Shown: positions 23,485 to 45,684 of the stretch, one piece after another
Layout: the number at the start of each line of letters is the position of its first letter
How positions within the stretch are numbered: position 1 is the first letter of the stretch
NCBI GenBank assembly: GCA_016213785.1
Contig: JACQZQ010000044.1
Location: forward strand, 62,001 to 126,000
Length of the DNA: 64,000 nt
Source: Acidobacteriota bacterium
GTDB lineage: Bacteria > Acidobacteriota > Blastocatellia > Chloracidobacteriales > JADJPF01
Reading direction: 5' to 3'
Position numbers and translations under genes: made by a program
The notes under the pieces: generated by a model
What the model saw: the letters and a program-made list of their open reading frames with translations, nothing else
Told to the model about the DNA's origin: nothing
Database searches by the model: none

Positions 23485-24060
23485 TTGTTAGTAGAAAAGT
23501 CAGATTTTACCATTCCTAATTTTTTAACTCTACTTCGTATTTTATTAATCCCCGTTTTTGTTTGGGCTATACTAAAACTATATTTTACTTTTGCCTTAAT
23601 AATTTTTTTTATTGCTGGAATCAGTGATGGGCTTGATGGGTTTTTAGCTAGGAGACTTAAGCAGCAAAGTAAATTAGGCCAAGTGCTTGATCCTATAGCA
23701 GATAAGCTATTACTTACAATTACTTATTTAGTACTAACTTTGCCAAATCGAGGCTATGATCCTCTACCAATATGGTTAACCTTTACTACTATTTTAAGAG
23801 ATGTAGGTATTGTTATTGTTGCTTTAATAATCCGTAAACTAACAGGTTTTAGCGATTTTAAACCTTCTCAACCTGGTAAATGGAACACAGCAGTATTATT
23901 AGTTACAATACTTGCTTTTCTTGTCACTAATAGTATTGAAAGCTATACTGAGTACTTAATAGGCTTTTATTGGTTAGCTTTAGCAACAACAGTCTTTTCT
24001 GGTCTACATTATATCTATTTTGTTAATCAGGAACTTATAGAGTACCGTCTTAAAAAATAG
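23485..24060 (+). CDS. pgsA: CDP-diacylglycerol-glycerol-3-phosphate 3-phosphatidyltransferase
   Basis: Makes phosphatidylglycerol phosphate, the committed step to anionic phospholipids, in the inner membrane. The CDP-alcohol phosphotransferase motif is complete: DGLDGFLARR...GQVLDPIADK, with all four Asp present. Starts with the typical FTIPNFLTLLRILLIPV helix. 191 residues and about five membrane helices fit PgsA. The start is taken as TTG 23485, since no in-frame ATG or GTG precedes the conserved N-terminus; the Shine-Dalgarno is weak. The AI-2E-family gene follows ten bases later. Confidence 0.93.
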   Translation: MLVEKSDFTIPNFLTLLRILLIPVFVWAILKLYFTFALIIFFIAGISDGLDGFLARRLKQQSKLGQVLDPIADKLLLTITYLVLTLPNRGYDPLPIWLTFTTILRDVGIVIVALIIRKLTGFSDFKPSQPGKWNTAVLLVTILAFLVTNSIESYTEYLIGFYWLALATTVFSGLHYIYFVNQELIEYRLKK

Positions 24061-31117: not shown

Positions 31118-33577
31118 ATGGATAAATTAAATAATTTGAAAATTTCACTTTGCCAAATGCCAGTAATTGCTGGTCGTCCTGATCTTAACCGTGATTATAT
31201 TATTAAAGAAATCGAGTTAGCCTGTAAAAAAGGCTCTGACATAATTGTTTTTCCTGAAATGTCTGTAACTGGCTATATTATTGGCGATCTTTATGACGAT
31301 GAATATTTTATTAAGGACGCTCAAAGGTGTAATGAACAAATCCGTTTTTCTACTAAATCAGGAATTACTGCTATTTGGGGAAATATTACTTTAGATATTA
31401 AAAATAAAGGGGAAAATGGACGACCCAGAAAGTTTAACACTGCTTTAATAGCCCAAAATGGTCAATGGTTAGGTTATACATATAAAACTTTACAACCAAA
31501 CTATAGAATTTTTGATGATGATAGACATTTTTACTCTACTAGAAAGGTTTTTGAAGAAGAATTACAAAACTTAAGCTTAGAAGATAAAGAAAATAGCTTA
31601 ATAGTCCAAGATTATTTCTTGCCATTTGAAATTCAAACTAAAATAGGCGAAATAAAAATAGGGATAACTCTTTGTGAAGATATGTGGTGTGAAGATTATT
31701 CTTATAATCCTACAAAATACTTTGTTGATAATGGTGCAGAGCTTATTTTTAATCTTTCAGCTTCTCCTTGGTCTTGGCAAAAAAATAGAAAACGGCATGA
31801 AATAGTAAAAAAACTTCTTTCAATATCTAAAGTCCCCTTTGTTTATGTAAATAATACAAATATTCAAAATACAGGAAAAAATTTAGTAGTTTTTGATGGT
31901 AGCTCAACCGTCTATAACTCTGAAGGCGAGATTATTTTTTCAATTCCTGCTTATGAAGAAGGCACAAAAGAGTTAACTTTTAGCCAAAGTATGTTAGTAG
32001 CCTCTCTTGCACCTCCTGATGATACAAAAGAACTCTATCTTGCTCTTAATACTGCAATTAGAGAATATTTTAAGACTCTTCCTCCCACCCATCGTAAAGT
32101 TATAGTAGGTTTAAGTGGTGGTATTGATTCAGCCCTAACCCTAGCGCTTTATGTAGATGTACTAGGAAAAGAAAATGTGTTTGCTATCAATATGCCATCA
32201 CGTTTTAATAGTGAGGCTACTAAAAATATTGCCCAAAAAATAGCTACAAACCTAGATGTAATTTATGAAATACGGCCAATACAGGAAATCGTAGATTTAA
32301 TTGCTGAAAAAACAGGAGTTAAAGAAAATAGTCCAAGTTATGAAAACATCCAAGCTAGAGCTAGAATGGAAATCCTAGCAGCACGTGCCCAAAGTTTAAG
32401 TGCTGTGTTTAGTTCAAATTGGAATAAAATAGAAGCCTCTTTTGGCTATGGGACACTTTATGGTGATATGGCAGGTTTTGTTGCTCCAATTGGGGATTTA
32501 GTTAAACGAGAGGTCTATCAATTAGCCGACTACTTAAATAAAACTATCTATAAAAAAGAAGTTATCCCACAAGAATGTTTTGAAATAGCACCTACTGCTG
32601 AACTACAAGAAAATCAGCAAGATCCCTTTGATTATGGGAACTTGGAGCGACGAGGCTATCACGATGAAATGGTAAGAGCTTTTACTGATTTTAGGCTTAA
32701 TCCAGAATGGTTTTTAGAAAAATATGCTCAGAAAACTTTAGAAAAAGAACTAAAACTATTACCTAATACATTAAAAAGGCTTTTTCCTTATACCTCTGAT
32801 TTTATTAAAGATCTAGAAAAGCATTGGCAGCTATTTTATGGCTCTTATTTTAAGCGTATTCAAAGCGCCCCTGTTCCAATTGTAAGCAAAAGAGCTTTTG
32901 GTACAGACTTGCGAGAGTCTATTCTTTCTGCTCATTTTACCAGCCGCTATTTAGAGTTAAAAAGATTTTTGCTTTCACAAGAAAGAAAAATTGCAATTTT
33001 TGGTGGTAGCTTTAACCCTGTAGGTAAACACCATCGCCAAATTGCTGAAAACCTGCTTCCTCACTTTGATTTGATAATAATTGTCCCTTGTGGTATTCGC
33101 ACAGATAAAGCTTCGGTAAATGCTATTTCTTTAGAACACCGTAGAGAACTTGTTAAAAGAGGCTTTGAAGGGTTAGAAAAAATCGAGTTTGATTTTTTTG
33201 ACTTAGATAATGATACTTATACTCCAAATTATTTATTAGAAAAACGCTATAAAGAACGTTTTCCAAATCAAGATATCTGGTATGTTATTGGAGGCGATAT
33301 CGTTACAGGAGGTCGAGACAAAAAATCAGAAATTCATAGAATTTGGCAACATGGAGAAGAAATCTGGGAAAAAATGAATTTTCTAGTAATAGTACGTCCA
33401 GGTTATTTAGTCGAAAAAACAGATCTTCCCATACACTCTAATGTAATGGAAATAAATGATTTATATGGCTCAGGTAGTCTTATACGTGAACTTTTAGCCG
33501 CAGGAAAACCTATCGATGAACTAGTTGTTGCTAGTGTTGCAGAATATATAAATCAACATAAACTTTATCAAAAATAA
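31118..33577 (+). CDS. nadE: Glutamine-dependent NAD+ synthetase fused to nicotinate-nucleotide adenylyltransferase
   Basis: 819 residues in three domains. Residues 1-290 form a nitrilase-type glutaminase with triad Glu47 (FPEMS), Lys123 (YKTLQPNY) and Cys186 (TLCEDMW). Residues about 305-600 are NAD synthetase with the P-loop SGGIDS at 333-338. Residues 624-819 are a NadD-like nucleotidyltransferase with GGSFNPVGKHH at 629-639, the HxGH-region equivalent, and an YVIGGDIVTGG loop. The protein could therefore perform the last two steps, NaMN to NaAD to NAD+, in one chain. The third nucleotide-binding motif (ISTxxR) is seen as the SGSLIREL segment. Start codons of this gene and nth abut head to head. 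Confidence 0.9.
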   Translation: MDKLNNLKISLCQMPVIAGRPDLNRDYIIKEIELACKKGSDIIVFPEMSVTGYIIGDLYDDEYFIKDAQRCNEQIRFSTKSGITAIWGNITLDIKNKGENGRPRKFNTALIAQNGQWLGYTYKTLQPNYRIFDDDRHFYSTRKVFEEELQNLSLEDKENSLIVQDYFLPFEIQTKIGEIKIGITLCEDMWCEDYSYNPTKYFVDNGAELIFNLSASPWSWQKNRKRHEIVKKLLSISKVPFVYVNNTNIQNTGKNLVVFDGSSTVYNSEGEIIFSIPAYEEGTKELTFSQSMLVASLAPPDDTKELYLALNTAIREYFKTLPPTHRKVIVGLSGGIDSALTLALYVDVLGKENVFAINMPSRFNSEATKNIAQKIATNLDVIYEIRPIQEIVDLIAEKTGVKENSPSYENIQARARMEILAARAQSLSAVFSSNWNKIEASFGYGTLYGDMAGFVAPIGDLVKREVYQLADYLNKTIYKKEVIPQECFEIAPTAELQENQQDPFDYGNLERRGYHDEMVRAFTDFRLNPEWFLEKYAQKTLEKELKLLPNTLKRLFPYTSDFIKDLEKHWQLFYGSYFKRIQSAPVPIVSKRAFGTDLRESILSAHFTSRYLELKRFLLSQERKIAIFGGSFNPVGKHHRQIAENLLPHFDLIIIVPCGIRTDKASVNAISLEHRRELVKRGFEGLEKIEFDFFDLDNDTYTPNYLLEKRYKERFPNQDIWYVIGGDIVTGGRDKKSEIHRIWQHGEEIWEKMNFLVIVRPGYLVEKTDLPIHSNVMEINDLYGSGSLIRELLAAGKPIDELVVASVAEYINQHKLYQK

Positions 33578-33707: not shown

Positions 33708-34814
33708 GTGAGTAATGAATTAGAAACAACCTACCAAATGGTTTTACAAGCCGAGTTTCCAGAAGATGTTTTTGGTGCTCTACTAGCAGAAACTCCCGAA
33801 GCAAAAAAAGAACAGCTAAATACAATATATAAACAGCTTGCAAAAATTCTCCATCCAGATCGCTATCAAAATAAAGCATCATTTCACCAAAAAGCAGCAG
33901 AAGCTTTTCCAATTCTCTTAGAACTCTATGAACGAGCTAAAACTAGAATTGATAAAGAAATCTATGGCTCAAAAGCTCCTGATGAAGAAGAGGAAATAGA
34001 CTTTATTATCCAAACACGTAAGCAAGAATATCATTTACGCGCTACTTTGGCAGAAGGTGATTTATCTATTCTCTATAAAGGCGATTTTGTTAATGAAAGC
34101 GGCCAGACTGTAAAAATTGTAGCTAAAGTAATCCAAGATCCTGCTGATAATGACCTTGCTCAAAATGAGATCAAAGTATTAAGAACTCTTTTAGCTACAC
34201 CAAGTAAGGCTAGTAAGCATTTACCTGTTTTCTATGATCAGTTTAAGACTACTGAAGGCCAATTAGGTCTAATTCTAAATTATTTAGAAGGCTATTATGA
34301 TTTCTACTCAGTTTATGAAAAATATAAACAAGGTATTGCTGAAAAACATATGGTTTGGATGCTAGGTAGATTGCTTAGTATTGCTGGGTTTGCCCATAGT
34401 AGAGGCGTTGTTCATGGAAATATAGAACCCGCACATGTAATGATTAGACCTAGCGATCATAATTTATGCTTAATAGATTGGTCTTATGCTGCTATAAATC
34501 CATTTCAAACAGGAGATAGTTTTAAGGTTTTTAACGAGGATTATAGTGCTCCAGAAGTTGCTGAACGTAAAAAACCTATTCCATCTTCAGATCTTTATTC
34601 TATTGGAAAATGTATGATCTTTCTTTTAGGAGGAGATATTAAAACAAATTCAATTCCAAATACTGTTAATGAGAGGTTGCGAAGATTTATACAGTATTTT
34701 GTATTACCTAGCCCTCTACAACGCGCCCAAGATGCTTGGGAAATGCACGAGCAATTAAGTAAGTTAATTGTAGAGTTATGGGGGCCAAAGAAATTTTTAG
34801 AATTTAAAATGTAG
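33708..34814 (+). CDS. J-domain protein fused to a pseudokinase
   Basis: 368 residues. Residues about 5-85 form a J domain with the diagnostic HPD at 49-51 (KILHPDRYQ), so it should stimulate an Hsp70 ATPase. Residues about 105-330 have the protein-kinase fold: a VAIK-like Lys in KIVAKVIQ, alpha-C Glu in QNEIKVLR, APE-like DYSAPEV. The catalytic loop, however, is VHGNIEPAHVMI instead of HRDxKxxN, and DFG is DWS, so phosphotransfer is unlikely. GTG start with GCGAGG ribosome-binding site. The VWA gene follows after a gap that holds a conserved-loop hairpin. Confidence 0.85.
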   Translation: MSNELETTYQMVLQAEFPEDVFGALLAETPEAKKEQLNTIYKQLAKILHPDRYQNKASFHQKAAEAFPILLELYERAKTRIDKEIYGSKAPDEEEEIDFIIQTRKQEYHLRATLAEGDLSILYKGDFVNESGQTVKIVAKVIQDPADNDLAQNEIKVLRTLLATPSKASKHLPVFYDQFKTTEGQLGLILNYLEGYYDFYSVYEKYKQGIAEKHMVWMLGRLLSIAGFAHSRGVVHGNIEPAHVMIRPSDHNLCLIDWSYAAINPFQTGDSFKVFNEDYSAPEVAERKKPIPSSDLYSIGKCMIFLLGGDIKTNSIPNTVNERLRRFIQYFVLPSPLQRAQDAWEMHEQLSKLIVELWGPKKFLEFKM

Positions 34815-34817
34815 AAG

Positions 34818-34839
34818 GGACAGACCTATGTGTCTGTCC
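34818..34839. repeat. Conserved-loop hairpin repeat, copy 2
   Basis: GGACAGAC - CTATGT - GTCTGTCC: 8-bp perfect stem, loop CTATGT, which on the minus strand reads ACATAG. It is thus copy 1 in reverse orientation with a different outer stem. It sits three bases after the J-pseudokinase stop and upstream of the VWA gene's AAGGAGG ribosome-binding site. Confidence 0.6.
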
Positions 34840-34869
34840 ATACATCGTTAATAAAGAAAGGAGGCCACT

Positions 34870-36363
34870 ATGGGTGGTGGATATTATGATGGTGATGTAG
34901 GTGAACGTAGTCGTTCAACTCAACGAGAAGTTTTTACTTATCAAGGGTATAGCTCAGATCCTAACGCGGCAACAGGTCGGCGTGAATGTCATGCTGAATT
35001 AAATGTTAAAGGAAAAAAACGAGAATGCCGTGACTCTCCTCAACACCCTACTTCAACCCCAATTGTTGTAGCAATGGATGTTACCCGCTCTCGTGGTGAT
35101 GATGCTAAAGTTATCTATAGTAAACTTCCTATGTTTATAGGCCAAATAATCTTAAAAGGCTATGTTCCTGACCCAGAAGTAAGCTTTTGTGCTATTGGTG
35201 ATGCTAATTCAGATAATGCTCCAATTCAAGTTGGACAATTTGAGTCAGATAACCGATTGGATGAAACTTTAAGTAAAATTTGGTTAGAAGAAGGCGGTGG
35301 TGGAACAGGGCAAGAATCTTATGAATTAATGGCATATTATTTTGCAAAACATTCAATACTTGACGCTACAGCGCGAGGTAGAAAAGGCTATTTCTTTTTT
35401 GTAGGCGATGAGGGTTTTTATAGCAAAGTAGATAAAAATCATATTAAAAACTATATTGGTGATGATGTTGCTGAAGATGTTCCTTCTGCACAAGTTTTTG
35501 CTGAACTACAGCAAAAATACCAAGTTTTTTTTATTTACCCGCAAAAAACTTGGCAAGAAAGAAAAAGCGATATTGATGCAGAAATTAAAAAACGTGTTGA
35601 GGCCGCAGGCGGTCTTTATGAAGGTGTAGATATTCGTGCCTCACTACTTTGGAATAACCGTAATGATCTAGATTTACATATAGTTACACCAGCAGGACAC
35701 CATATTTATTATGGAGATAAACGTGCTCCTTGTGGTGGCTGGCTAGATGTAGATATGAATGTTCAAGGTGAAACCACTAAACCTGTAGAAAACATTCGAT
35801 GGAAAAAAGGCGATGCTAAAAAAGGGCGCTATAAAATCTATGTCCAAAATTATCGTTTTCATGAAAGTAATCAAGCCGCTACCCATTTTAAGCTTGAAGT
35901 TGAAGTAAATGGTGAAGTTAAACACTTTGAAGGCCAAACACCTGCTTATAAATATGGCTCAGATAGTAATGTTGATGTATATGAATTTACTTATGATCCA
36001 AATTTGCGCCCTGTAGATGCAAGCGAAGAAGATAAATATGCAGGATATGATGATGCCACTATTAAACGTCAATGGGCTAGTGTAATCGCTCCTGAAAATA
36101 TTTTACTTATTGATGATCCTCAAGGAATTGTAGATGTGATGTTAGGTGCATTAGCTTTAGTAGAAGGCACTTCAGACCTAGATACTTATCTTGTTGATAT
36201 GCAAGGTCGAGGTCAAACCGAAATTCGCCAAGGTCAAACCAGAAAAGCACTAGAAGGTCTAGCCGTAAGCTCTTCTGCTACAGCATTAACCAAAATTGAA
36301 GGTAGCGGGCTACCTAGCAAAGACGCTGGTAAAAAACGAGGCGGGAAATCTAAGCGCTTGTAA
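34870..36363 (+). CDS. VWA-domain protein with DUF2135-like C-terminal domain
   Basis: 497 residues. Residues about 63-265 form a von Willebrand A domain with a plausible complete metal site: D70-V-T-R-S (VVAMDVTRSRG), a Thr in GGGGTGQES and Asp in FVGDEGF. Residues about 270-395 resemble DUF2135/YfaP (NRNDLDLHIVTPAGHHIYYG ... GWLDVDMN ... GRYKIYVQNY), a beta-sandwich. No signal peptide or membrane helix is seen, so it is probably cytosolic. Preceded by a strong AAGGAGG ribosome-binding site. In tellurium-resistance-type clusters VWA proteins (TerY) pair with kinases; the pairing here with a J-domain pseudokinase is similar in spirit but not the same. Confidence 0.83.
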   Translation: MGGGYYDGDVGERSRSTQREVFTYQGYSSDPNAATGRRECHAELNVKGKKRECRDSPQHPTSTPIVVAMDVTRSRGDDAKVIYSKLPMFIGQIILKGYVPDPEVSFCAIGDANSDNAPIQVGQFESDNRLDETLSKIWLEEGGGGTGQESYELMAYYFAKHSILDATARGRKGYFFFVGDEGFYSKVDKNHIKNYIGDDVAEDVPSAQVFAELQQKYQVFFIYPQKTWQERKSDIDAEIKKRVEAAGGLYEGVDIRASLLWNNRNDLDLHIVTPAGHHIYYGDKRAPCGGWLDVDMNVQGETTKPVENIRWKKGDAKKGRYKIYVQNYRFHESNQAATHFKLEVEVNGEVKHFEGQTPAYKYGSDSNVDVYEFTYDPNLRPVDASEEDKYAGYDDATIKRQWASVIAPENILLIDDPQGIVDVMLGALALVEGTSDLDTYLVDMQGRGQTEIRQGQTRKALEGLAVSSSATALTKIEGSGLPSKDAGKKRGGKSKRL

Positions 36364-36379
36364 TGTTAGGGTAAATTTG

Positions 36380-36428
36380 TGTGTTGGGGTAGACACATAG
36401 GTCTACCCCAACAGTCTACCCCAACACA
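36380..36428. repeat. Conserved-loop hairpin repeat, copy 3, with duplicated right arm
   Basis: Left arm TGTGTTGGGGTAGAC (36380-36394), loop ACATAG (36395-36400), right arm GTCTACCCCAACA (36401-36413), then a second right arm GTCTACCCCAACACA (36414-36428). The left arm can pair with the first right arm (13 bp) or the second (15 bp), so two exclusive hairpins are possible. It lies between the VWA gene and the PK-like gene. Confidence 0.65.
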
Positions 36429-36441
36429 GATAAGAGGGAAA

Positions 36442-37374
36442 ATGTTAATAGCGACTCTACCTGCTATTCACCAAGAGAGATTACTTACCCAAATTATTCA
36501 GCATCCATTGGTTGGAGAGCTACGTTATAACACTGGGGTTATTTCTGCTTACTCACCTAGAGAAACTTTAACAAGAATACTTCTACTAACTGAACGTTAT
36601 GGAAAAAAACTTTGGATAGACTTAAAAGGCCGCCAGCTAAGAATTACTAATTGGGCTGTGCCAAATTATGGAAAAATAGAACTTAATCATGAAATAGAAG
36701 TAGATTGTCCTGCTAAAGTTTACTTTCGTGGAAATGATTTTTCTGAGCTAAAAATAGTACGAGGTAATATTATTTATGTTGATCCTCCACCTCGTTATGC
36801 CGTAGGTAGTGGTCAAGCAATTAATATTCATGGTAATAACTTAAAAATAAAAGGGTATTTTACTCAAGAAGACTTAGCCTATATTGCTCTAGCAAGTGAA
36901 CTAGGTGTTAATAATTTTATGCTTTCTTTTGTAGAAGGCTTTTCAGATATAACCGATTTTCAGAGTCTTTGGCAAAAATATTTACTAATTAATAATCCAA
37001 ATATAGTGCTAAAAATAGAATCTCCTAAGGGGTTAGAGTTTATTAATAGTTTTGAAATAAAGTCTATCCCTAATTGTTCATTAATGGCTGCTCGTGATGA
37101 TTTAATGATTAATATTGGAGAAAATAAAGCTGAAATCCTACTTGCCCTTAAGCAAATTATTAAGCAAGATCCACAGGCTATAGTAGCCTCACGTATTTTT
37201 GCTAGTTTAGAAAATGGTTCTGTTTCAATGGGCGATTTTGCTGATTTAGCCTTAATGCACCATCTTGGCTACTCTCGCTTTATGTTTTCTGATGGAATTT
37301 GTAACCAATATTTTGATAAAGCTATTCAAGCATGGGAGAATTTTTTATCTGTATTTGATAAGCTAGATTTATAA
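36442..37374 (+). CDS. Degenerate pyruvate-kinase-like barrel protein
   Basis: 310 residues from ATG 36442, preceded by AGAGGGA; the upstream GTG at 36379 would translate through hairpin copy 3 and is rejected. The order of motifs follows pyruvate kinase: LWIDLKGRQLRI (for DTKGPEIR), a short beta-domain stretch, LASELGVNNFMLSFV, VLKIESPKGLEFI (KIE kept), LMAARDDLMINIG (for MVARGDLGVEI, Asp kept, Gly changed), IVASRIFASL (for ATQMLES) and a final SRFMFSDGI. Catalytic Lys/Glu/Asp positions are thus retained while the rest is eroded, and the C-terminal regulatory domain is missing. A PEP- or pyruvate-binding role is inferred, not shown. Third gene of the J-pseudokinase/VWA cluster. Confidence 0.75.
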   Translation: MLIATLPAIHQERLLTQIIQHPLVGELRYNTGVISAYSPRETLTRILLLTERYGKKLWIDLKGRQLRITNWAVPNYGKIELNHEIEVDCPAKVYFRGNDFSELKIVRGNIIYVDPPPRYAVGSGQAINIHGNNLKIKGYFTQEDLAYIALASELGVNNFMLSFVEGFSDITDFQSLWQKYLLINNPNIVLKIESPKGLEFINSFEIKSIPNCSLMAARDDLMINIGENKAEILLALKQIIKQDPQAIVASRIFASLENGSVSMGDFADLALMHHLGYSRFMFSDGICNQYFDKAIQAWENFLSVFDKLDL

Positions 37375-39232: not shown

Positions 39233-39402
39233 TATTTTTCCTTTAGTTTTTAAGAATGCAGAGATAAAACAGAGATAAGGATAGATTATAAACCTAATTC
39301 ATAGTAAAAAGTAGAAGGCATTTGGGAACATTCTTACCCTTTTGTGCGACTAAACATTGATTTCTATTAATCTTAACCCTGTAAAAATTTAAGGTGGTTG
39401 TA

Positions 39403-42400
39403 ATGAATGATAATAAAAAAGCCGTTCTTGTTGCATTATCAGTGTTTTTAATTGTATCGGTTGTTGGTGCAACATGGTTTTATTATAGAAAAACACATGT
39501 TGAAACTGAACCTATCAAAAAACTGATCTCATCCAAAAATAAAAAAGGTTTGCAATTTCGCTTAAGTGATGGTGAAGCAGAGTTACCTAAACGAGTTCCA
39601 GTTGTTGAGGCTAAACCTATTTCAGATGCTGATGCTGAGAGCATATTGAGCCGCTTAGAACCAATAAAATCAGAAGAAAGCGATAAAACTGAGTTTGCTT
39701 TAAGAGAAAATTCTCTCCCTCCACCTAAAACAGGGACAATAATTAATACGAAATTTCCACCCAATAAAAATCTAAAAGTCGATGAGTCTTCTAAATCAGG
39801 CGTTTTAGAAGTTGTAAGATATTCCCCTCAAGGTGATGTCCCAGTAGCGGTTAACTTAAGTGTTACTTTTTCTCAGCCAATGGTTGCATTAACTTCGCAG
39901 TCTGAAGCCTCACAAAATGTTCCAGTTAAAATTAGTCCTCAAGTCGAAGGCAAATGGCGTTGGCTAGGAACAAAGACTTTAGTTTTTGAACCTAAAAACC
40001 GTTTTCCTATGTCTACAGAATATTCTGTTGACATTGATACAACAATAAAATCAGCCTTAGGGCAAAGTCTGCAAACCCCTACTAAATGGAAGTTTAAGAC
40101 TCCAACCCTAACCTTAAAAAATCACTTTCCTACAGGCGGCTCTGTAGGTACTGACCCAGTAATTTTTTTAGAATTTGATCAGGAAATAAATAAAACTACA
40201 GTACTTGAAAGTATTAAAGTAAAGTCTGATAAAGCTAGCTATAAAGTTAGATTAGCAACAAAGGCAGAAATTGAAGCAAATAAAGAAATACAATATCTAG
40301 TTAAATCAGCTAAAGATAAATATTCTTTGGCTATTAAAGTCGATAATGGGTTGGTTGATAAGCTAATTTCACCACTTCCAAATGATACAAATATAACTGT
40401 TAGTCTAGAAGCAGGCGCTAGATCAGCAGAAGGAACTCTTAAAACACCTGCTAAACAAGAGTTTGGATTTACTACCTATAGCCCTTTACAAGTAACCTCA
40501 CATTCTTGTTATGAGCAGAGATACGCATGTGAGCCTTCAGGATATGTAAATTTGTCTTTTAATAATTTGCTAGATCCTAAATCTTTAGACCTTTCTAAAA
40601 CAGAAATTACCCCTAAGCTTGAAGGTATGAAAATGCAAGTTAATGGTTATTACATAACTATTACAGGGAAATTTAAGGGTAAAAGAGTTTATAAATTAAA
40701 ACTTCAGAAAGGCTTTATTAAAGATGTTTTTGGGCAGTATTTAGAAACTCCTACAACTCTTGATTTTTATATTGGCCCAAGCCCTAAAAAGCTATCATCT
40801 TTAGGACAATATTTTTTAGTCCTAGACCCATTTGGCCCAGCAAAATTGCCCGTATTTACAACTAACCATAAAGAATTAAGAGCAAACCTTTATGCCGTTC
40901 AACCTGAAGATTTTAAGGAATTTGTTAAGGTTAACAGCACTCTTTATGACTATGAAAAAGAGACTTATAGGCAAACTGTAGGAAAATTAATTTCTTCAAA
41001 CATAATAAAAATAAATTCTATTGATGATGAGCAGATTGAAACATCAATAGACCTAGGTGATGTACTTCAAACTAGTGGGGGGCAAGTTTTTGTCTTAATT
41101 GAACCTACAGACCAGCCAAAAGAGGTTTGGAAACGTCAATATATTAGAAAATGGGTGCAATACACTGATATAGGGCTTGATGCTATAGTTGATAATGAAG
41201 AAATGCTTGTTTGGGCTAATTCACTAAAAACAGGTAAAGCCCTAGCAGGTGTAGAAGTTTCTTTGAGAAATCAAACTGCTACAACAGGAGCAGATGGAAT
41301 TGCTAGGCTTAAGCTAGATAATTTAAGAAACCCTGCGGTTTTAGTAGGAAAAAAAGGCAAAGACACTGTGATTTTGCCTCCTAATAATTATGGCTATATA
41401 GAAGAAGGTATTTGGACAAGGGTAGAGACAGAAAATACTCTAAGTTGGTATGTAGTTGATGATAGAAAGACTTATCGCCCTGGCGAGAAAGTTACTATAA
41501 AGGGGTGGGTAAGAGCTTTTGAAAATAAAAAAGGTGGTGATATAAAACTTGCTGGTGAAGTTAAAACTGTTAACTACAAATTAAATGACTCTCAAGGTAA
41601 TAAAATCTCTAATGGCACAACACAGGTTAATCCATTGGGAGGGTTTAACTTAGAGCTTACTCTTACTCCAACAATGAATTTAGGTAATGCTAATTTAGAG
41701 TTTCAGGCTGTAGCGCCAAACTCAAATTACAACTACTTGCAGTTTTATCATAACTTTGAAGTACAAGAGTTTCGCCGACCTGAATTTGAAGTCTCAACTA
41801 AGGCTAGTGAAAATATTAATATAATTGGTGGACATAGCAATGTTACTGTTTCAGCAAACTACTATTCTGGAGGAAACCTTAATAATGCTGATGTAAATTG
41901 GCAAGTTACCCAATCACCAACAACTTATACACCTCCTAATCGTGGTGATTATACTTTTGGCAAATGGACACCTTGGTGGACAACTCCTTCCTACAGTTAT
42001 TATGGCCGTCATGGTCGTTATTATGCTGATGAAGAAGATAGAGAAGCTATTAATGAAGGCTCTAGCTCAGAACCAGAAACTTTTCCAGCAAAAACTAACC
42101 CTAATGGAACACATAATTTAAGAATAGACTTTGATTCTGTTAATCCCGCTCAACCTACAAGCTTAAATGTCCAAGCAACTGTAATGGATGTTAACCGACA
42201 AGCTTGGTCATCATCATCAACTTTACTTGTTCACCCATCTAACCTTTACGTAGGGTTGCGTAGCGAGAAGACTTTTGTTGATAAAGGAGAACCCTTTCTT
42301 ATTAAGTCTATTGTTACTGATATTGATGGAAAAGCCATTGCTAACACCAATATTAACTTAAGTTTAGTAAGAATTGAGTATGAGTATGATAATGATGGTA

Positions 42401-45400
42401 GACTTAAGACTAAAGAACTTGATCTTCAAACTCAAACTATAACATCTGTTAGTGATGGAATAGATGTTAAATTCTTACCAAAAGAAGGTGGTAGCTATCA
42501 GCTTACTGCAACAATTCTTGATGAAAATGCCAGACCAAACCAAACGCAATTAACGCTTTGGGTATCAGGTGGAAAATCCTTACCTGAAAGAGACTTAAAA
42601 CAAGAACAAATACAGTTAATTCCTGATAAGAAAGAATATAAAGTTGGTGAGACTGCCCAAATCCTTGTACAAGCGCCATTTTATCCTGCTGAGGGTTTGT
42701 TAACTTTACGCCGCTTAGGTGTTATAAAGAGCGAAAGATTTACTATCACCTCATCAACTTACACAATAAAAGTGCCAATTGATGAAAGCTATTTGCCTAA
42801 TCTTTATGTTCAGGTTGACTTAGTAGGAGAGTCTGAAAGAGTAAAAACTGATAAAGGCGGCGAGCAAGATGGTAGCGTTGATGTGCTACTACCTAAGCGG
42901 CCTGCTTTTGCTGTAGGACAATTAAACCTATCAATTCCACCTGTTTCTAGAACTTTAATAGTAGATGCTAAGCCTAAACAAAGTGCAGTTGAACCAGGAG
43001 GAGAAACTGTTATTGAGCTAAACTTAAAAGATTCAAATAACAAGCCTGTAGAAAATGGTGAAGTAGCACTTTTTGTTGTAGATGAAGCTATTCTTGCGCT
43101 TTCAGGCTATAAAATGCCAAACCCTATAGATACTTTTTATGCCCAACGTAGCCCTTCCGTTTCAGATACTCACTTAAGAAGTTCCGTAGTCTTAGCTAAT
43201 AATAAAGACATAGAAACTCAATTAGCTTCAAATGAGCAAAATATTCCAGCAGATAAACAAGTTCTTAGAATGGAAGAAGATCTTAGAGAGAAAGCAAACC
43301 GTGATATGAGTGGAGTTGCTGGTGGGGTTGAGGGAGGTGTTATTGGCGGTGTAGTTGGAGACGCTGCGCCACCACCACCACCAATGCCAGTCGCCGAAGC
43401 ACCTGCTCAATCAGCACGCGCCAGTAAAATGGAGGCTAGAAAGATTGCAGATCTTCCTGCAAATGGTCGTGGTTTTACATCGGAACTAAAAGCAATTTCT
43501 GTTATTGAGCCTAAACCTGATGGAAAACCTATTCGTGTTAGAGAAGATTTTAATGCTTTAGCAATTTTTGAAGCCGCGCTATCTACTGATAATAAAGGAC
43601 ATGCTGAAGTAAAAATTAAACTTCCTGATAGTTTAACTCGCTATCGTATAATGGCTGTTGCTGTAGCAGGTGAAAAGCAATTTGGTATGGGAGAATCTAC
43701 ACTAACGGCTCGAATGCCTTTGATGGTAAGACCTTCAGCCCCACGCTTTCTTAATTTTGGTGATAAATTTGAATTTCCAATTGTTGTACAAAATCAAACA
43801 GATGCACCACTAAGTGTAGATGTAGCGATGAGAGCCACAAATGCTACATTAACTTCTGGCTTAGGCCGCCGTTTAACTGTTCCAGCTAATGAACGTGTAG
43901 AAGTTCGCTTGCCTGTTTCAGCAGAAATGGCTGGAAAAGCTCGCTTTCAAATAGGTGTAGTCTCAGGTAAATGGACAGATGCAGCACAAGTTTCTTTACC
44001 TGTTTGGACTCCTGCAACTACTGAGGCTTTTGCAACTTATGGGACTTTTGAAGAAGACGCAATTATCCAACCAGTTAAAGCTCCAGCAGATATTTATAAA
44101 CAATTTGGAGGTTTAGAAATCTCAACCTCTTCAACCCAACTCCAAGAACTAACTGACGCAGTCCTCTATATTGTCTCTTATCCTTATGAATGCAGTGAAC
44201 AAGTCTCATCAAGGGTTATGGCAATTGCTGCATTAAAAGATGTTCTAGGAGCTTTTAAGGCCGAAGGTTTACCTAAAGCAGAGGAATTAGAAACTGCTTT
44301 AGCGCGAGATATGAAAAGACTTCAATCATTACAAAATAATGATGGAGGCTTTGATTATTGGCGAAAAGACTATGAATCCGATCCTTACCTTACAGTTCAC
44401 GTTACGCATGCAATAGTGCGAGCAAAAGAAAAGGGTTTTGCTGTTCCTGAGAACACTTTAACACGCGCTCAAAATTACTTGAGAAATATAGAGAGCTATC
44501 TTTATCGTCCTTATTACAGCCAAGAAATAAGAGACTCTATAGTTTCTTACTCTCTTTATGTTAGAAAACTAATGGGAGATAAAGACATAAATAAAGCTAA
44601 ACAATTAGTTTATCAGCGTAAATTGGAAAAACTTCCTATAGAAGCAATTGGTTGGTTATGGTCTGTTCTAGCAGGTGATCCTGGTTCAAAACAAGAGCTA
44701 GAACAAATTCGGCAATTTATTATTAATAAAGCTACTGAAACGGCAGCAACGGCTCATTTTGTTACAGATTATAAAGATGGCGCATACCTACTACTTGCTT
44801 CAGATTATAGGACAGATGCAATCCTTTTAGATGCATTACTTACAGATCAACCAAGTAGCGATCTAATCCCTAAATTAGTTCGAGGGCTACTTGACCATCG
44901 CAAAGCAGGTAGATGGGAAAGCACACAAGAAAATGTGTTTGTTTTACTAGCTTTAGACCGTTATTTTGCCACTTATGAAAAAGCTACACCTAATTTTATA
45001 GCTAGAATTTGGTTAGGAGATAAATTTGCTGGTGAACACGCATTTAAGGGGCGAACTACGGAAAAACATCAAGTTAATATTCCTATGAATTACTTAAGCG
45101 ATACAGAACAAAACCTAACATTAAGTAAAGAAGGAGTTGGAAGAATCTACTATCGTGCTGGAATGCGTTATGCTCCAAAAAACTTAGATTTACCTGCTGC
45201 TGAGTATGGTTTTACTGTAGAAAGAAAATATGAGGCTATTGATAATCCAGAGGATGTAAAGCTCGATAAAGACGGGATTTGGCGAATTAAAGCAGGCGCT
45301 AGAGTAAGAGTTCACTTAAGTATGGTTGCTCAAGCTAGGCGCTATCATGTAGCCTTAATAGATCCATTACCAGCTGGTTTAGAAGCCTTAAATCCTGCAC

Positions 45401-45684
45401 TCGCTACAACTGGGGCAATTCCTCAAAATAATTCTAGGGCAAGTGAAGAATCATTAAAATTTGGTCGCTATTACTGGTATGGCCCTTGGTATCAACACCA
45501 AAATTTTAGAGATGAGCGAGTAGAAGCTTTTACTCAGCTACTTTGGGATGGCGTTTATAATTATAGTTATGTTGCTCGTGCTACAACCCTTGGGACTTTT
45601 GTTGTTCCTCCAACAAAAGCCGAGGAAATGTATCATCCTGAAACTTTTGGAAGAAGTAAGACAGATAAAGTAGTGATTTATTAA
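39403..45684 (+). CDS. Giant alpha-2-macroglobulin family protein with thioester motif
   Basis: 2093 residues from ATG 39403 (an in-frame GTG at 39394 lies inside the AAGGTGG ribosome-binding site). One N-terminal membrane helix (VALSVFLIVSVVGATWFYY) makes it probably periplasmic and inner-membrane anchored. Bacterial MG domains follow: VNLSVTFSQPM Big-like start, MG2 LSWYVVDDRKTYRPGEKV, bait-like region with a Gly/Pro-rich GGVEGGVIGG...PPPPPMP stretch, then PDSLTRYRIMAVAV and the thioester YPYECSEQ with Cys near residue 1597, then QNNDGGFDYW. This is the YfhM-like long type; E. coli YfhM associates with PBP1C, but no pbpC gene lies here. Ends at a bidirectional terminator. Confidence 0.93.
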   Translation: MNDNKKAVLVALSVFLIVSVVGATWFYYRKTHVETEPIKKLISSKNKKGLQFRLSDGEAELPKRVPVVEAKPISDADAESILSRLEPIKSEESDKTEFALRENSLPPPKTGTIINTKFPPNKNLKVDESSKSGVLEVVRYSPQGDVPVAVNLSVTFSQPMVALTSQSEASQNVPVKISPQVEGKWRWLGTKTLVFEPKNRFPMSTEYSVDIDTTIKSALGQSLQTPTKWKFKTPTLTLKNHFPTGGSVGTDPVIFLEFDQEINKTTVLESIKVKSDKASYKVRLATKAEIEANKEIQYLVKSAKDKYSLAIKVDNGLVDKLISPLPNDTNITVSLEAGARSAEGTLKTPAKQEFGFTTYSPLQVTSHSCYEQRYACEPSGYVNLSFNNLLDPKSLDLSKTEITPKLEGMKMQVNGYYITITGKFKGKRVYKLKLQKGFIKDVFGQYLETPTTLDFYIGPSPKKLSSLGQYFLVLDPFGPAKLPVFTTNHKELRANLYAVQPEDFKEFVKVNSTLYDYEKETYRQTVGKLISSNIIKINSIDDEQIETSIDLGDVLQTSGGQVFVLIEPTDQPKEVWKRQYIRKWVQYTDIGLDAIVDNEEMLVWANSLKTGKALAGVEVSLRNQTATTGADGIARLKLDNLRNPAVLVGKKGKDTVILPPNNYGYIEEGIWTRVETENTLSWYVVDDRKTYRPGEKVTIKGWVRAFENKKGGDIKLAGEVKTVNYKLNDSQGNKISNGTTQVNPLGGFNLELTLTPTMNLGNANLEFQAVAPNSNYNYLQFYHNFEVQEFRRPEFEVSTKASENINIIGGHSNVTVSANYYSGGNLNNADVNWQVTQSPTTYTPPNRGDYTFGKWTPWWTTPSYSYYGRHGRYYADEEDREAINEGSSSEPETFPAKTNPNGTHNLRIDFDSVNPAQPTSLNVQATVMDVNRQAWSSSSTLLVHPSNLYVGLRSEKTFVDKGEPFLIKSIVTDIDGKAIANTNINLSLVRIEYEYDNDGRLKTKELDLQTQTITSVSDGIDVKFLPKEGGSYQLTATILDENARPNQTQLTLWVSGGKSLPERDLKQEQIQLIPDKKEYKVGETAQILVQAPFYPAEGLLTLRRLGVIKSERFTITSSTYTIKVPIDESYLPNLYVQVDLVGESERVKTDKGGEQDGSVDVLLPKRPAFAVGQLNLSIPPVSRTLIVDAKPKQSAVEPGGETVIELNLKDSNNKPVENGEVALFVVDEAILALSGYKMPNPIDTFYAQRSPSVSDTHLRSSVVLANNKDIETQLASNEQNIPADKQVLRMEEDLREKANRDMSGVAGGVEGGVIGGVVGDAAPPPPPMPVAEAPAQSARASKMEARKIADLPANGRGFTSELKAISVIEPKPDGKPIRVREDFNALAIFEAALSTDNKGHAEVKIKLPDSLTRYRIMAVAVAGEKQFGMGESTLTARMPLMVRPSAPRFLNFGDKFEFPIVVQNQTDAPLSVDVAMRATNATLTSGLGRRLTVPANERVEVRLPVSAEMAGKARFQIGVVSGKWTDAAQVSLPVWTPATTEAFATYGTFEEDAIIQPVKAPADIYKQFGGLEISTSSTQLQELTDAVLYIVSYPYECSEQVSSRVMAIAALKDVLGAFKAEGLPKAEELETALARDMKRLQSLQNNDGGFDYWRKDYESDPYLTVHVTHAIVRAKEKGFAVPENTLTRAQNYLRNIESYLYRPYYSQEIRDSIVSYSLYVRKLMGDKDINKAKQLVYQRKLEKLPIEAIGWLWSVLAGDPGSKQELEQIRQFIINKATETAATAHFVTDYKDGAYLLLASDYRTDAILLDALLTDQPSSDLIPKLVRGLLDHRKAGRWESTQENVFVLLALDRYFATYEKATPNFIARIWLGDKFAGEHAFKGRTTEKHQVNIPMNYLSDTEQNLTLSKEGVGRIYYRAGMRYAPKNLDLPAAEYGFTVERKYEAIDNPEDVKLDKDGIWRIKAGARVRVHLSMVAQARRYHVALIDPLPAGLEALNPALATTGAIPQNNSRASEESLKFGRYYWYGPWYQHQNFRDERVEAFTQLLWDGVYNYSYVARATTLGTFVVPPTKAEEMYHPETFGRSKTDKVVIY

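Follow-up and report, generated by a model that had tools for sequence, protein, structure and literature searches.

The window analysed here, a 64,000-nt stretch of an Acidobacteriota genome (contig JACQZQ010000044.1), contains a run of plus-strand open reading frames (ORFs) encoding a J-domain protein with a kinase fold (JK), a von Willebrand factor A protein (VWA), and a pyruvate-kinase-like barrel protein (PKL). The JK-VWA-PKL order is conserved in Acidobacteriota, in candidate-phylum bacteria (Parcubacteria, Falkowbacteria), and in large phages, and the three genes are the core of a conserved four-gene module, completed in most cases by a PurA-like ligase. In bacteria the module is often located in operons for NAD biosynthesis or salvage, and it may serve chaperone-assisted enzyme assembly near the NAD pool.

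The run begins with a NadE-NadD fusion (31118 to 33577), a glutamine-dependent NAD synthetase with a nicotinate-nucleotide adenylyltransferase domain according to Pfam and NCBIfam. It is followed by JK (33708 to 34814, 368 aa), in which a J-domain with an HPD motif is joined to a protein-kinase fold whose HRD Asp is replaced by Asn (HGN), and by VWA (34870 to 36363, 497 aa), which carries a metal ion-dependent adhesion site (MIDAS, DxTxS...D) together with a DUF2135-like insertion and has viral relatives. PKL was called as an ORF of 331 aa (36379 to 37374); its start is most likely the ATG at 36442, because the preceding 21 codons fall inside an interspersed palindromic repeat, leaving a single-domain barrel of the pyruvate kinase (PK) superfamily (36442 to 37374, 310 aa) that lacks a C-terminal domain. 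The repeat (36364 to 36441 of the plus strand, core GTTGGGGTAGACACATAGGTCTACCCCAAC) is probably noncoding; it has 18 matches in the genome and a hairpin z of -3.8, and the alignment of PKL homologues leaves out the stretch it would encode. The intergenic gaps are 130 bases between NadE-NadD and JK, 55 between JK and VWA, and 15 between VWA and PKL (78 to the likely PKL start), and the genes next downstream lie on the opposite strand. An earlier note on this DNA had described the last three as same-strand genes with short gaps, and the ORF list agrees with it in coordinates; the run should, however, include NadE-NadD, and the likely start of PKL is shifted. That reading also passed over the PurA-like gene as a fourth member and the setting of the genes in NAD-salvage operons of relatives.

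A Pfam/NCBIfam scan of the run supported the NAD synthase, nucleotidyltransferase, kinase (Pkinase, E = 7e-14, above the cut-off), and PK-barrel assignments (E = 2e-7, just above the cut-off), and gave weak matches to DnaJ in JK (E = 7e-4, with HPD intact) and to DUF2135 in VWA (E = 0.04).

Gene order and neighbors in bacteria and phages

Twenty-five loci were tallied for PKL, 19 bacterial loci that were read and six viral ones. VWA lies directly upstream of PKL in 24 of them (the exception is G801) and JK upstream of VWA in 20, so that the three families, whose co-occurrence and gene order elsewhere the earlier note had put up for checking, stay neighbors in distant genomes. Of 58 relatives, those with VWA belong to the same genus (92% identity), to the same family (73%), and, in one case, to the same class, and PKL occurs at the same loci. 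Two genomes (G001, G002) hold NadE-NadD, JK, VWA, PKL, and PurA-like genes in a single run; JK, VWA, PKL, and PurA-like genes are also found in G521, from another family of the phylum, and a search of genome contigs added Parcubacteria (62%) and Falkowbacteria (49%) loci. PKL is present in 11 of 288 relatives of a candidate phyla radiation (CPR) genome and in 3 of 295 relatives of G521; in the phylum of the window, 3 of 396 genomes gave strong matches and one more a weaker match. Pairwise distances among JK (computed on whole proteins), VWA, PKL, and PurA-like proteins correlate (r, 0.71 to 0.91). Because the order is conserved across phyla and phages and the distances correlate, this arrangement is not due to chance.

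The PurA-like ligase is the fourth gene in most modules and directly follows PKL in G001, G002, G521, G058, G080, G086, G065, G059, G688, G680, G644, and phage L046. In the species of the window it is located on a separate contig (C124; L064 7804-9171) beside the transglycosylase gene that neighbors its G001 counterpart; since this neighbor is kept, the locus has been split by rearrangement or assembly.

NAD genes (NadE, NadD, or nicotinamide mononucleotide adenylyltransferase [NMNAT]) adjoin 10 of the 19 bacterial loci (G000, G001, G002, G017, G058, G080, G086, G065, G742, and G801), with NadD several genes off in the same run in G065. The adjoining enzymes are non-homologous (NadE-NadD, NadD, NadM-type NMNAT, NadE), and the NadE-NadD fusion likewise neighbors the module in G001, G002, G080, and G086. 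CPR loci also hold genes for NAPRT, NAD kinase, a nicotinamidase-like protein, PRPP synthetase, Nudix proteins, ADP-ribosylglycohydrolase (ARG), and NrtR, and NrtR-like regulators are found at three loci. A NadE-profile match beside PKL at L183 proved to be MnmA and was excluded from the count. Elsewhere the genome of the window encodes a separate NadE (C91), a NadD-like gene, and a NadD-NAD-kinase fusion, so the NadE-NadD copy of the window looks dedicated. The last of these, at L071 1654-3036 (contig C52 of G000, the genome of the window), joins a NadD domain to a putative NAD kinase half.

Among viruses, PKL, JK, and VWA occur together in six IMG/VR contigs, one of them the huge phage LR745208; a viral scan with a single PKL sequence gave no match, and an alignment query found matches. 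VWA has 99 viral relatives by tblastn. A local profile search returned 88 viral loci after removal of known duplicates, 84 of them untruncated; a PurA-like gene stands beside VWA in 76 of the 84, mycobacteriophages included, JK is found in 27 and PKL in 6, and five of the eight loci without a PurA-like gene carry PKL. Named carriers include Bixzunavirus mycobacteriophages, for instance Nappy (gp260, JK; gp261, VWA; gp263, PurA-like), and, for VWA and PurA-like genes, Rhizobium and Vibrio phages. In a phage collection, VWA matched 207 records and PurA-like 227, near-equal for Mycobacterium, Rhizobium, and Vibrio; these are separate record counts whose lists were not intersected, and the mycobacteriophages are close relatives.

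Several side observations concern these phages and the window. In Nappy gp261 (L065 5897-7678), VWA is split just ahead of its conserved FIGDE motif by an intein-like block with weak Hint and Intein_splicing matches. In Rhizobium phage RHph_Y65 (L066 2747-8762), HAD-like and PRTase_3 genes lie upstream of the VWA-PurA-like pair; the PRTase_3 gene is the one link to Ter systems, and a faint one. A Rhizobium phage gene annotated as NMNAT/Nudix did not align with NMNATs and is probably Nudix only. Downstream in the window, an ORF of 2096 codons (39394 to 45684) reads like a candidate alpha-2-macroglobulin-type protein.

Conserved residues of the four proteins

The PKL profile matched 102 PDB sequences, and all 60 of those listed are pyruvate kinases, placing PKL as a true PK homologue and in no unrelated family. 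PKL aligns to PK chains, and 13 homologues (alignment A5) show no or almost no variation at the residues that could be mapped to the phosphoenolpyruvate (PEP)/Mg site (R28, N30, D60, R67, K191, E193, and D220); we take their PK counterparts to be R72, N74, D112, R119, K269, E271, and D295. The protein ends after the barrel, without the C-terminal allosteric domain of PK. The earlier note's description of a PK-family protein that keeps the Lys, Glu, and Asp ligands and lacks the regulatory domain is thus correct; its term "degenerate" does not fit residues conserved to this degree, and the barrel is shortened, not catalytically degenerate.

JK retains the kinase Lys, Glu, and DFG Asp (as DWS), and its J-domain with HPD coupled to a fold lacking the catalytic Asp is as the earlier note had it. 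Where an active Ser/Thr kinase would have the HRD Asp, the JK of the window and all bacterial JKs linked to a PurA-like gene have Asn. Overall, 29 of the 30 PurA-linked JKs carry a substitution there, and the Asp persists in 9 of the remaining 11 and in all nine PKL loci without a PurA-like gene. The PurA-linked exception, L101, has lost Lys and DFG. Two losses occur without a PurA-like gene; one of them, L146, is on a short contig similar to L145, where a PurA-like gene is present. The association of Asp loss with the PurA-like gene gave a Fisher P of 1.5e-6 (3.7e-8 with L101 and L146 reassigned), which is only a guide because the sequences are related. DnaJ matched 7 of 13 JK members at E ≤ 0.01. 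All 20 PurA-linked viral JKs tabulated have HPD, including those without Lys, Glu, and DFG, as do 6 of 10 PurA-linked bacterial ones; its retention in phage JKs with a decayed kinase fits a chaperone-recruiting role. In G680 and G644 the position of JK is occupied by a gene assigned as AAA+ only.

In three CPR loci whose JK lacks HPD, a further kinase that ends in a conserved domain (L050 14983-17277, L051 3514-5610, L053 3004-5094) adjoins a second VWA-like gene and a gene of unknown type. An NMNAT-like identity for the C-terminal part, considered for its PHRGHIEYI motif, received no support from hhalign.

The MIDAS assignment of VWA rests on D70xT72xS74 and D180, which are conserved in the VWA alignment (A3), and the site foreseen as probably intact can be regarded as such. 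As for the VWA-DUF2135 label given to this protein, the VWA part stands, whereas DUF2135 is a weakly matched insertion inside the VWA region that is missing from the phage and G017 homologues.

By its residues, the PurA-like ligase is neither PurA nor PurZ. Its alignment has nine bacterial and 74 viral rows, and two of the viral ones are repeated under a bacterial label, for a total of 85; D13, K16, and H41 are present in all 85 and Q224 and T239 in 84. V273 is replaced by His in all rows, T301 by Gln in 84, and N38 by Gln in 83; T300 is also changed. In the Asp-binding loop of PurA, R303 is replaced in most rows and R305 is a gap in all. Every PurA-like row has the Asp of PurA at position 13, where all members of the phage PurZ group (PMC12884076), and PurZ of phage SH-Ab 15497, have Ser. 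In a midpoint-rooted tree the family stands apart from PurA and PurZ on a branch supported at 93/74, with the bacterial copies nested among phage ones (the L046 and L065 rows are phage, though labelled bacterial). The family is large in phages, where it is annotated as "2-aminooxy adenylosuccinate synthetase." A 2026 survey assigned 147 of 481 phage PurA homologues to the PurZ group, and 246 of the 251 members of its E. coli PurA group are prokaryotic (PMC12884076); many phage PurA homologues are therefore left unassigned. Like PKL, the PurA-like protein looks like an enzyme.

Proposed function and comparison with known systems

We propose, as a possibility short of even odds, that JK, VWA, PKL, and the PurA-like ligase constitute an undescribed system common to phages and bacteria, in which an Hsp70-J-protein/VWA chaperone pair is dedicated to two enzymes of the purine/PEP type. 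These would produce or protect an unusual nucleotide linked to the NAD pool, and the kinase fold would act as a scaffold wherever the PurA-like protein is present. The J-domain of JK would recruit Hsp70, so that JK, or the AAA+ protein in G680 and G644, would form the chaperone arm of the complex. VWA would hold a client through its MIDAS metal, as has been proposed for NorD, whose MIDAS binding of a client while the chaperone partner works was inferred from mutants (PMC9976466). The clients would be PKL, which would use a nucleotide together with PEP or pyruvate, and the PurA-like protein, which would catalyze an NTP-driven ligation on a 6-oxopurine nucleotide. Both would work on the NAD nucleotide pool or next to it; in one simple scheme, PKL would regenerate from PEP the NTP that the ligase uses. 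We found no description of such a module in the open-licence papers searched, and none of these pairs DUF2135 with von Willebrand factor, or a VWA domain with adenylosuccinate synthetase and phage.

Observed here are the gene order, the co-inheritance, the setting in NAD operons, the protein families, the conservation of catalytic residues, and the loss of the kinase; the complex, its recruitment of Hsp70, and its substrates and product are inferred. Several points weigh against this proposal. The DnaJ match of the window lies under the Pfam cut-off (20.1 against 27.8 bits), and Hsp70 recruitment is not universal, because HPD is lost in L050, L051, L053, L178, and several loci without a PurA-like gene. 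NAD genes are absent from the vicinity of nine bacterial loci and of almost every phage locus. Five viral loci carry PKL without a PurA-like gene, and most with a PurA-like gene lack PKL, so the two are separable and a fixed PKL-to-ligase relay cannot be general. Finally, since its Asp- and IMP-binding residues are replaced, the substrate of the PurA-like protein is guesswork.

Two other explanations appear unlikely, to a similar degree. PKL may be a PEP/pyruvate-binding subunit without turnover, in a metabolic sensor whose JK-VWA part relays its state to the neighboring NAD-synthesis enzymes. The pseudokinase, the missing C-terminal domain, and the position of PKL directly beside NadE or near NMNAT where JK or the PurA-like gene is missing (G801, G742, G017) agree with this; however, bacteria and phages share the mapped PEP/Mg-site residues to a degree beyond what simple binding would require, and PKL and NAD genes are missing from most of the phage modules. 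The other explanation is a conflict module akin to ARG-centred systems, which would repair or refill NAD and derivatives of ADP-ribose following an attack by phages or toxins, VWA acting as a chaperone for modified proteins. ARG-centred anti-ADP-ribosylation systems with vWA chaperones and Nudix regulators have been predicted (PMC9503650), and some CPR loci likewise combine an NrtR-type Nudix regulator, ARG, and VWA, with nicotinamidase-like and Nudix genes also present; in LR745208 an ARG gene lies about 4 kb downstream. Against this, an ARG profile search of window positions 24000 to 46000 gave no match, the run has no Nudix or phosphatase gene, ARG is found in 2 of 19 bacterial loci (G058, G065), and DnaJ, pyruvate kinase, and adenylosuccinate, and with them JK, PKL, and the PurA-like protein, are not found in the text of that paper.

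Less probable still is a phage DNA- or nucleotide-modification module, captured by bacteria, in which the PurA-like protein would produce an unusual purine, on the precedent of PurZ and 2-aminoadenine (PMC8342488, PMC12884076). The VWA-PurA-like pair is widest in phages and the tree nests the bacterial copies among them, but the Ser13 of PurZ is missing and the bacterial copies sit in NAD operons. A Ter-type (TerY-P) stress or nucleoside-metabolite module, the parallel drawn by the earlier note, is highly improbable: VWA, a kinase fold, and the HAD-like and PRTase_3 genes of the Rhizobium phage recall it, but the kinase of the window run is dead, neither a phosphatase gene nor a Ter partner set is seen there, and the VWA and kinase proteins match no Ter-named model among the Pfam/NCBIfam matches listed. 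What endures of that interpretation is its anatomy: a dead kinase that bears a J-domain, an adaptor with a MIDAS, and a barrel with a PEP/pyruvate site.

Returning to the proposed chaperone pair, its would-be clients resemble known enzymes with clear differences. PKL shares with pyruvate kinase the fold family, the PEP/Mg-site residues, and the A- and B-domain motifs, and differs in its length of about 310 aa and in forming its own family in NAD and phage loci. The PurA-like protein shares the P-loop, D13, K16, H41, Q224, and T239 with the adenylosuccinate synthetases PurA and PurZ, and differs in the His, Gln, and altered 300-to-305 positions and its separate branch. The module as a whole recalls the MoxR AAA+/VWA maturation pairs (NorQ/NorD, CbbQ/CbbO, RavA/ViaA), in which a MIDAS VWA protein and a chaperone-type partner are encoded beside the enzyme they serve. 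If the proposal is right, a J-domain/dead-kinase protein tied to a VWA adaptor would direct Hsp70 to a specific set of metabolic clients, in parallel with these pairs, and because Bixzunavirus phages with JK, VWA, and PurA-like genes grow on M. smegmatis, the question is open to direct test. Unlike the MoxR/VWA pairs, the window run has no MoxR AAA+ protein, AAA+ genes lying upstream of VWA only in G680 and G644; a J-domain pseudokinase stands in its place, with PKL and the PurA-like ligase as the candidate clients.

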